A stretch of 64,000 bases of DNA from Candidatus Saccharimonadales bacterium (GTDB lineage Bacteria > Patescibacteriota > Saccharimonadia > Saccharimonadales > Saccharimonadaceae). Location of the stretch: the NCBI GenBank assembly GCA_039928925.1, contig JBDSSF010000004.1:62001-126000 (forward strand), in the 5' to 3' direction. Each line of letters begins with the position of its first letter. The first letter of the stretch is position 1. The notes beneath the pieces were generated by a model that was given only the letters and a program-made list of their open reading frames with translations, did not search any database and was not told the origin of the DNA. A program made the position numbers and the translations under genes. Positions 53,777 through 56,618 of the stretch are shown here, piece by piece.

Positions 53777-54955
53777 TCACTTCGATTCAAGGGTATATAG
53801 TCGGCGTGACGCAATAAAAACCATTGGTGAAAAGATAAGGATTGTCGCGACCATTGTTAGACGAATATCCAATACACCAACGAGCCCAACTATCCACACG
53901 AGTGGAATGTAGAGGAGCTGCGACACCGATCCTGCCAGTGATCCAACCGATGCCTGTGTTGTTGATGGTGCATGGAGCTGTATCATAGGCATCGTAATTG
54001 ATCCAAGCCAACCCTGAGCAAGCCCAAGTCCAGCATAGAGCCATATCGTGATAAGAGAGAGATGAATACTCATCACGCTCAAGGCAGATAGTACTACTAT
54101 GTTTGGCCACATAAATCGTTTCCATTCACACAGTCGCATGCTCCATTTTCTGGCAATAACCCCGCCAATAGCCACCATTGCAGCATTTAGTGCCCAGCCA
54201 ATTGCAACGATTTTTAACGGCACGCCCGCAGTTAGCATTAGTGGTGTGAGTGCCCAAATCATTACATGAGTAATTTTTTGTCCAACCGCATGCGCTGCAA
54301 TAAGCCACCGAAGCCTTTCGTCCCGCAAGCTCACCATCGTGAGATGCGTCATGTCGCGAAACGGATTACGATGAATGCTTACGAAACGCTCACCATCCTC
54401 TCGAATAATGAGTGACAATATCCCACCGAATACGTATGGTCCAGCCGAGATGAGAATCGCCGTACGAGGTGACACTGCTGCAACTGCACCACCGATGAGT
54501 ACCACTATGATTTGGGCTAGTGGCTTGTAGATCGTTAGCATAGCATTCTCTGATCGCAGACGCCTACCTGTTGAATCAAACCGCTGGCAATATGCATACA
54601 GCAGCGCTCCGTCAGAACCATGACTAAATGCAAGGCTTATGCCGATGATAATCTCCGCGATTATTACATCACGAAAACTATGAGCTTGAGAATAAAATAT
54701 AAACCCAAGTGCCGCACCGCTGTCCCCAAATGCGTTGCAAAACTTTCTACTGAAACGGTCTGCAATCCATCCTGTCGGTATGTTGAGTGTCAAAAGAGCG
54801 ACCGTAAACAGTGCTTGACTGAGGCCGATTTGACTTTGATCCATTCCAATCGAATGGTAGAACGGTACCATTATTGATATCGATGCTAACGTATTTGTTG
54901 CAACGATTTCAACACGTAGCAGTCGAAGACTTGTAGTATAACTGGTCATCGGCAT
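53777..54955 (-). CDS. MFS transporter
   Basis: 392 aa, about twelve TMs in two six-helix halves, with the MFS motif-A-like segment after TM2, NIPTGWIADRFSRKFC. A proton-driven efflux or uptake permease; an efflux role (drug or toxic compound) is favoured because its leader (55068-55219) has the architecture of a ribosome-stalling attenuator. ATG 54955 with GAGAAAGG upstream. Base composition is higher in GC than the resident genes, consistent with acquisition by transfer. Substrate unknown. Confidence 0.9.
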   Translation of the reverse strand: MPMTSYTTSLRLLRVEIVATNTLASISIMVPFYHSIGMDQSQIGLSQALFTVALLTLNIPTGWIADRFSRKFCNAFGDSGAALGFIFYSQAHSFRDVIIAEIIIGISLAFSHGSDGALLYAYCQRFDSTGRRLRSENAMLTIYKPLAQIIVVLIGGAVAAVSPRTAILISAGPYVFGGILSLIIREDGERFVSIHRNPFRDMTHLTMVSLRDERLRWLIAAHAVGQKITHVMIWALTPLMLTAGVPLKIVAIGWALNAAMVAIGGVIARKWSMRLCEWKRFMWPNIVVLSALSVMSIHLSLITIWLYAGLGLAQGWLGSITMPMIQLHAPSTTQASVGSLAGSVSQLLYIPLVWIVGLVGVLDIRLTMVATILIFSPMVFIASRRLYTLESK

Positions 54956-55067
54956 ACCTTTCTCGAAAGTAATGGATTTGACATAGCTATTCCTTTCCTT
55001 GAAGATGTGAACGAGCAGCTCCGCGTATGCGAAGCCAGAAAAGCCTCCGTGTCGATGATTTTAGATG

Positions 55068-55140
55068 TAAAAAGTCTCCGAGGTCGGAGACTTATCTAGC
55101 GTCGAATAAAAAATGTAAGATTAAATGCGTGATAAGTCTC
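55068..55140 (-). promoter_or_regulatory. Transcription attenuator in the MFS leader (alternative hairpins)
   Basis: Read on the minus strand: segment A GAGACTTATC (55140-55131), segment B GATAAGTCTC (55096-55087), segment C, CGGAGACTT (55080-55072), then T5. A pairs perfectly with B over 10 bp (antiterminator), while B together with its next base pairs with C over 9 bp to form a classic terminator. A is inside the end of the leader ORF 55121-55219, so a ribosome finishing the leader masks A and permits termination. Confidence 0.82.
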
Positions 55141-55219
55141 GGTTTTGATATGTGACATACATAAACAGACCATTAATATGGGCTGAAGGAGTACAAAACT
55201 GAAACTTAAAACTTTTCAT
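55121..55219 (-). CDS. Regulatory leader peptide of the MFS gene (32 aa)
   Basis: ATG 55219, stop TAA at 55121. The peptide begins MKSFKFQFCTPSAHINGLF and ends YQNRDLSRI. TATTAT lies 6 nt before the ATG (55226-55231), so the leader ORF is probably at the very 5' end of the transcript. Its last codons coincide with segment A of the attenuator. Drug- or starvation-induced stalling in the leader would free A to form the antiterminator and turn on the transporter. No regulatory codon run stands out. Confidence 0.7.
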   Translation of the reverse strand: MKSFKFQFCTPSAHINGLFMYVTYQNRDLSRI

Positions 55220-55313
55220 AAAACTATAATAACATAATTATTATAAAAAACAAAACACAATATAAATAGCGACAGTAAAATAACATGGAATAATCATAAT
55301 GAACGGGCGTAGG

Positions 55314-56618
55314 CTACATTAAGTCAAGAACAATAAGGTGCTCGATATGAGGCGTCCGAGGAAAAAAATTGTAGCCCTGATGAGCTTTAACACCATATTT
55401 TTCAGCCAGTCTCTGAACATCACGGGCCTGCGTTACAGGATTACATGATAAATAGATAATTCGTGCGGGAGCTGCTTCGAGAAGTTTTGTAATAACGTCC
55501 TCATGAAGACCGGCACGGGGTGGATCAACGATGATAGTTGCATCTGAAGTAATATGCTCAAGTGCAGTTTCGCTTGGTGCGAGAATGGCTTTTGCTTCAT
55601 TCTCGCGTTCGAGTGCAGTAATATTACGTTTCATTTCACGGACAGCATGCTCATTAATTTCTACTAGCGTAACGTTATCACCGCCAATTGTAAGACCGAT
55701 AGTGCCAACACCACTATATAAGTCAACAGTTGGCTTTTTTGCATCGAGCCACTGCTTCATGTCAGTAAGCGCATGTTCATAAACAGGTATGTTTATTTGA
55801 AAAAAACCTTCGACAGCGTATGTAAATGGAACACCCATGATCGTATCAGTTAATGTTGTTTCACCCCAAGCTTGTAGACGCTCCGTGATGATGCTTGCTG
55901 GGCTTTTTGGGTTTGAAAAAATAAGTTCGAATCCAGTAAGGCCAAGTGGCACTAGTTGCTCATCCGTGAATAAATTAAAAGTTTGATCTTTCACGTATAG
56001 TTGAGCGGCAACATTTCCTGAAGCATCACAACGTATTAGTAGAGTTTTTAGCATAAATGCTTGGATACCTGTCCGTTTTCGTAAAAGATTACGGATGTTC
56101 CGAGCGGCAATATTGATTGGTTCAAGTGCCAAGCTTGTGCCATCAACTGGAATTTTACCATGAGTTCCACGGCGGAAGAATGCCAGCTCAAGTTCATCCT
56201 TTTCTTTATCCCAGTAAAAACTAAATTCGATCTTATTACGGTAATTATAATCTTTACTATCGGTGTATACCGTAATTGGAACTGGGAGTACAATATCGTG
56301 AAGTTCGAATGCCTCTTCAATGAGTGCTGACTTATAATGTTGCTCGGCTTCAAGTGACATTATTTGCCATGGACTAGTCGATAGATAGCTTGTTTCATCA
56401 CGAGGAGCGATACGTTCATCACTTGCGGTGATTACATCAGCAACAACGCCTTCAAGTAGATTCGATTTCTTTTTAGTAACTTGGACACTTACTTTTTCAC
56501 CCGGGAGTCCGCCCCAGACAAATATTTTTTTACCGTATTCAACTTGACCAAGTGTTTGTCCACCACCAACAATTTTGTCGAGTTGAACTTCGACGATAGG
56601 AAAGATTTTTTTACTCAT
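55314..56618 (-). CDS. RNA m5U methyltransferase (TrmA/RlmCD family)
   Basis: 434 aa. N-terminal TRAM-like domain (EVQLDKIVGGGQTLGQV), SAM-binding VDLYSGVGTIGLTIGG, TIIVDPPRAGLHEDV, and the catalytic SCNPVTQARD. Methylates uridine C5 in 23S rRNA or tRNA. The four Cys that bind the iron-sulphur cluster in RlmD are absent: the corresponding stretch reads TSPWQIMSLEAEQHYK. ATG 56618, ten nt after the pilin-like gene, same direction. Confidence 0.92.
   Translation of the reverse strand: MSKKIFPIVEVQLDKIVGGGQTLGQVEYGKKIFVWGGLPGEKVSVQVTKKKSNLLEGVVADVITASDERIAPRDETSYLSTSPWQIMSLEAEQHYKSALIEEAFELHDIVLPVPITVYTDSKDYNYRNKIEFSFYWDKEKDELELAFFRRGTHGKIPVDGTSLALEPINIAARNIRNLLRKRTGIQAFMLKTLLIRCDASGNVAAQLYVKDQTFNLFTDEQLVPLGLTGFELIFSNPKSPASIITERLQAWGETTLTDTIMGVPFTYAVEGFFQINIPVYEHALTDMKQWLDAKKPTVDLYSGVGTIGLTIGGDNVTLVEINEHAVREMKRNITALERENEAKAILAPSETALEHITSDATIIVDPPRAGLHEDVITKLLEAAPARIIYLSCNPVTQARDVQRLAEKYGVKAHQGYNFFPRTPHIEHLIVLDLM

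Follow-up and report, generated by a model that had tools for sequence, protein, structure and literature searches.

A candidate four-segment transcription attenuator upstream of MFS and GNAT genes in Patescibacteria

The leader of an MFS transporter gene in the window, the stretch of 64,000 nucleotides analyzed here from a genome of ~985 kb, is best read as a ribosome-mediated transcription attenuator of the four-segment (trp/bmrB) type. It belongs to one RNA family that spans the Patescibacteria and precedes MFS or GNAT genes, most likely for self-protection against ribosome-targeting compounds. We assign this reading a probability of about 0.8. A preliminary description of this DNA had proposed a leader-peptide attenuator before the MFS gene of a CPR bacterium, with an A:B antiterminator and a B:C terminator, and both comparative sequence analysis and computed folds bear it out. 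It knew of no such element described in these bacteria; in agreement, no description of a leader-peptide attenuator in CPR/Patescibacteria was found in the literature searched. Nothing matching the element was found in Rfam or in that literature, and it seems undescribed.

Leader ORF and pairing segments

The leader comprises ~280 nt on the minus strand, flanked by the genes for an RlmD-like methyltransferase (55314-56618) and the MFS protein (53777-54955). Its features are as follows.

55226..55253, minus strand: predicted promoter with -35 TTGTTT (55253-55248), a 16-nt spacer, and -10 TATTAT (55231-55226)
55121..55219, minus strand: leader ORF MKSFKFQFCTPSAHINGLFMYVTYQNRDLSRI, 32 codons; an equivalent ORF is found in 80/80 loci
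55194..55214, minus strand: segment Z (segment 1), codons 2-9, the putative anti-antiterminator; pairs with A, far better in native than in species-swapped combinations
55167..55184, minus strand: apical hairpin within the leader ORF (AGCCCAU..AUGGUCU), from sequence and fold; the equivalent helix covaries in clade g11
55131..55140, minus strand: segment A (segment 2) GAGACTTATC, in the last leader codons; pairs with Z or B, the extended partner of Z being 55147-55128
55084..55100, minus strand: segment B (segment 3), the hub strand, with partners A, C, and D; core 55096-55087, GATAAGTCTC
55069..55093, minus strand: predicted intrinsic terminator B:C AAGTCTCCGACCTCGGAGACTTTTT, formed as AAGTCTCCG ACCT CGGAGACTTTTT, 9-10 bp and then T5; C is 55081-55069

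The TATTAT hexamer, the 32-codon ORF, A, B, and the C terminator had been named in the preliminary description, and all are present in the sequence where it had placed them. Four pieces were absent from it: Z (55214-55194), D (55049-55034), hairpin E (55037-55016), and a boxA-like motif (55017-55006).

In the window, 6 nt lie between TATTAT and the leader ATG. This spacing is 6-7 nt in 31/47 MFS-linked leaders, several leaders scored at 11 nt have an equally good -10 hexamer at 6 nt, and many homologues carry a promoter-like TTGACT-N17-TATAAT. Since only 6-7 nt separate the -10 box from the ATG, the transcript is predicted to start at or beside the ATG; hence, the leader ORF probably lies on a leaderless mRNA, the start being placed from the predicted promoter. 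Among close relatives, the pN/pS of the ORF is 0.56. Leader peptides vary widely across loci, and no conserved arrest motif is visible.

The core of B is an exact 10-bp complement of A, and such an A...B pair occurs once in the window, versus a mean of 0.00 in 100 shuffles. The fold of the leader lies 3.1 sd below dinucleotide shuffles (z -3.1), in line with the structure first proposed. In the MFS-linked leaders, the native Z:A pairing was computed at -18.2 kcal/mol versus -10.3 kcal/mol when partners were swapped between species, and the native A:B pairing at -18.3 versus -15.4 kcal/mol; 0/5000 permutations were as strong in either case. A:B covaries, with 23 double-change cells versus 4.6 after shuffling, and 84% of its positions are paired versus 18-47% in slid registers; this pairing was outside the structure of the covariance model described below. 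RNAalifold on the g11 leader ORFs returned the apical hairpin only, probably owing to excessive variability in the Z:A alignment, and the pairing was therefore tested by swaps between species. A generic terminator scan of the window did not list the C terminator, though its hairpin and T5 are plain in the sequence.

The marks of an attenuator found here are a short leader ORF near the predicted 5' end of the transcript, an anti-antiterminator (1:2) within that ORF, and competition between an antiterminator and an intrinsic terminator with one arm in the ORF, the U-tract being weak or missing in clade g11.

Homologous leaders and downstream genes

Reading upstream of MFS homologues gave 47 MFS-linked leaders of one layout. 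As the preliminary description would predict, the layout is kept and compensatory changes are strong, with marked covariation over 80 homologous leaders. A single-sequence query of genome contigs retrieved no relatives, but an alignment query did find them; viral contigs gave no relatives. Two covariance models were used, the first running from the stop codon to E and the second from A to E; neither includes Z. The first model matched 34/198 genomes of the family (23 elements before an MFS gene, 11 before a GNAT gene) and the second 35/393 genomes of the class, including other families and orders. The second model also detected the element in 6 genomes elsewhere in the phylum. The window genome has one strong element by the covariance model. 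In Rfam, no family scored above its gathering cutoff, and Phe_leader was the only match (19.7 bits, cutoff 55, E 0.71).

For sense matches, an MFS or GNAT gene lies directly downstream in 57/57 genomes inspected, with no other target, and beyond the initial MFS set the gene downstream is once more a GNAT gene or a different MFS gene. The GNAT acetyltransferase is ~225 aa and matches RimJ/SpeG-like proteins, its putative function being assigned by family. For an independent check, we used 33 model-found loci, where the Z region and the ORF were outside the model. In 33/33, an ORF opening with ATG extends into A, its end lying 11-25 nt past the first nucleotide of A; at random positions, such an ORF end is found in 6% for the 11-25 nt range and 16% for a wider range. 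Z:A in these loci was -15.8 kcal/mol native versus -9.4 kcal/mol swapped (0/5000). Loci L125, L173, and L191 rank poorly in this check; in these, the script took an ATG other than the promoter-adjacent one. The ORF, the pairings, their covariation, and the gene association are established at the level of comparative sequence.

No leader was recognised for some MFS relatives (L011, L028, L029, L037, L040, and L043). In L042, from another family (G261), a distant MFS relative is preceded by a leader that also has four segments (Z:A:B:C, T6), is unrelated in sequence, and lacks D/E. L069, in a record titled Erysipelotrichaceae, is an MFS relative 41% identical whose leader is different, GC-rich, and possibly structured, with no Rfam match.

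Two coding features lie downstream in the window.

53777..54955, minus strand: MFS transporter gene, 392 aa, from open reading frames and homology
54946..54984, minus strand: 12-codon ORF MSNPLLSRKVCR, following the SD AAGGAAAGG (55000-54992); stop codon overlapping the start of the MFS gene (ATGA)

Judged from its homologue L002, the true MFS start is probably 54949, with the SD GAGAAAGG at 54964-54957. The 12-codon ORF is absent from the relatives compared, in which the MFS gene begins directly after a conserved SD; it possibly reflects translational coupling, or else a frameshift where the gene begins. Matches of the MFS protein are generic and weak (NorA, TetA(P)). The family is patchy, with the protein in 28/198 family genomes (E<=1e-10) and in more genomes of the order, yet the named matches are nearly all Candidatus Saccharibacteria, which leaves the earlier suggestion of a gene acquired from outside unsupported. 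A few matching records are titled otherwise (Nomurabacteria, Erysipelotrichaceae) and may be mislabelled or real exceptions. In L028 (G171), the RlmD-like gene seen in the window is immediately followed by a different MFS gene (26% identical) that lacks the leader; the site behind this gene may be an exchange hot spot.

Segment D, hairpin E, and the boxA-like motif

Three further features lie between the terminator and the MFS gene.

55034..55049, minus strand: segment D, a second complement of B (14 bp), pairing with all of B; no clear U-tract
55016..55037, minus strand: hairpin E (UGGCUUCGC..GCGGAGCUG), overlapping the end of D; from homologues and the window sequence
55006..55017, minus strand: boxA-like motif TGCTCGTTCACA, 10/12 to TGCTCTTTAACA; suggestive only

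In an ordinary MAFFT alignment, the 14 pairs of B:D are 91% paired versus 22-50% in slid registers. A larger alignment, which leans toward B:D in that it was fitted to this pairing and includes four antisense duplicates, gives 89% paired, with 12/14 pairs changed on both sides. D was considered as a second terminator and rejected: most lineages have no U-tract there, distant families included, and D resembles a terminator arm only in clade g2 (L034, L067), which lacks C and has D acting in that position. Clade g11 shows no U-tract at the C arm and only a weak one at the D arm, so intrinsic termination is doubtful in this clade. In L123 (G016), T6 follows C, whose partner is the 5' half of B; this arrangement may bridge to the g11 form of the C arm.

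A boxA scan with the generic E. coli motif gave little excess (7.8 versus 7.2). A matrix built from the lineages' own rrn leaders placed 20/53 MFS-linked elements above the shuffled 95th percentile, and 3/27 GNAT-linked ones; the motif is retained as a lead on account of this enrichment, which is confined to MFS-linked elements. The 16S of the window genome is absent from its assembly, so boxA was taken from relatives. In the window and in L177, L192, and L194, the motif after E matches the boxA that these lineages carry in their rrn leaders (in L192, for instance, AGCTCTTTAACAACTC).

A broader scheme can be proposed tentatively, and we consider it rather unlikely as a whole. B would be the hub of an ancient Patescibacteria family, pairing as A:B, B:C, and later B:D, with D joining E and an rrn-like boxA behind it. 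D, E, and boxA would then form a second layer, for Nus-factor antitermination or resetting on the mature mRNA, coupled to the attenuator.

Ribosome states, alternative readings, and known systems

The window transcript was folded to T5 with a partition function, and ribosomes were simulated by masking. Computed without a ribosome, Z:A, A:B, and B:C had 16.6, 1.9, and 8.6 expected pairs. With the first 24 nt masked, as by an early ribosome, the values were 0, 10.0, and 1.1; placing the ribosome on the stop codon gave 5.2, 0, and 8.6. In this model, the switch is OFF when untranslated, ON upon an early stall, and OFF upon full translation. The logic first proposed therefore holds for a ribosome held early (ON) and for full translation (OFF); its claim that A:B forms when translation is absent is reversed, as folding without a ribosome gives OFF. 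Most other folded loci behave like the window across ribosome states. In L007, L012, and L042, equilibrium folding keeps the terminator despite an early ribosome, and L015 misbehaves.

In the mechanism proposed, RNA polymerase would start at or beside the ATG of the short leader ORF and produce a leaderless transcript. With no ribosome, Z:A and B:C would form, and transcription would terminate after T5; a fast ribosome reaching the stop codon would cover A, leaving B:C to terminate again. A ribosome held in the first ~10 codons, by a drug or any early elongation block, would cover Z and allow A:B, and with C single-stranded the polymerase would read into the MFS gene. Four parts of this picture are inferences: the leaderless start, termination itself, the inducer, and the substrates. 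Many antibiotics stall ribosomes. An antibiotic is suggested as inducer by the switch logic together with the two target families, and induction by antibiotics is plausible, the more so given the GNAT and MFS targets.

That the leader might instead sense charged tRNA for certain codons, as in starvation attenuators serving amino-acid metabolism, is improbable. The four-segment logic is the same as in trp, and Asn, Ser, Tyr, and Phe are abundant in the early leader codons; however, 72 non-redundant leader peptides hold only 6 triplets of any residue and no conserved single-residue run, and the targets are MFS and GNAT genes, neither biosynthetic nor named amino-acid transport genes. The combination of a regulatory codon run and a biosynthetic target was not found. 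In the absence of a conserved codon run, a single amino acid is unlikely to be the signal, and a general block of early elongation fits. Equally small is the chance of translational attenuation of the erm/cat/tet(L) type, in which a change of fold masks or frees the target's ribosome-binding site. Full-length transcripts do retain D and hairpin E near the SD, and clade g11 has no good terminator, but many loci have a terminator with T5-T7, and mean accessibility of the target SD is 0.46 with no ribosome, 0.45 upon early stall, and 0.52 with a ribosome at the stop, the same in all states, which argues against translational control. Sequestration of the SD by D/E was likewise rejected, as computed accessibility did not depend on the state. 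Least probable, and very much so, is a riboswitch-like RNA that binds a small molecule or protein and carries the ORF incidentally. The ORF ends in A in 33/33 model-found loci against an expected 16%, and the sequence varies while pairing is conserved, with no conserved ligand-like core and no Rfam match; the long conserved helices B:D and E and the single-stranded motif after E are the points in favor of such an RNA.

Actinobacteria, from which a large share of antibiotics comes, are considered the hosts of many Saccharibacteria. Most Patescibacteria are unculturable, and a switch found only before MFS and GNAT genes lets candidate resistance genes be picked out by sequence alone; being phylum-wide, it may also offer a handle on which compounds these cells meet. 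Ribosome-mediated attenuation would suggest that transcription and translation are coupled closely enough for it in reduced Patescibacteria cells, and the conserved D/E piece poses a concrete new RNA problem.

By analogy, the element would work like known drug-inducible attenuators. The trp attenuator of E. coli has the same 1:2, 2:3, 3:4 logic, with segments 1 and 2 inside the leader ORF; the present element differs in lacking a regulatory codon run, in its resistance-type targets, and in the added D/E. The mefE/msrD (Mega) attenuator of streptococci likewise places leader-peptide attenuation before an MFS efflux gene, with a much shorter leader peptide and macrolide-specific arrest. The regulation of msrD is the topic of PMC10314930. 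The boxB-boxA region of rrn leaders resembles the present element in having a hairpin and then a boxA-like CTTTRACAAYT, a motif carried by the rrn leaders of the same lineages; the motif is weak or absent in GNAT-linked elements. Like the element here, the bmrB leader of bmrCD in Bacillus subtilis combines a leader ORF with anti-antiterminator, antiterminator, and terminator, and its logic, the same as that proposed here, was demonstrated by experiment, with induction by ribosome-targeting drugs and by lincomycin most (PMC4191407). The multidrug exporter downstream of bmrB is of the ABC type, in contrast to MFS or GNAT here (PMC4191407). The two belong to different phyla and are alike by logic, the extra D/E and a probably leaderless leader being found only in the element described here.
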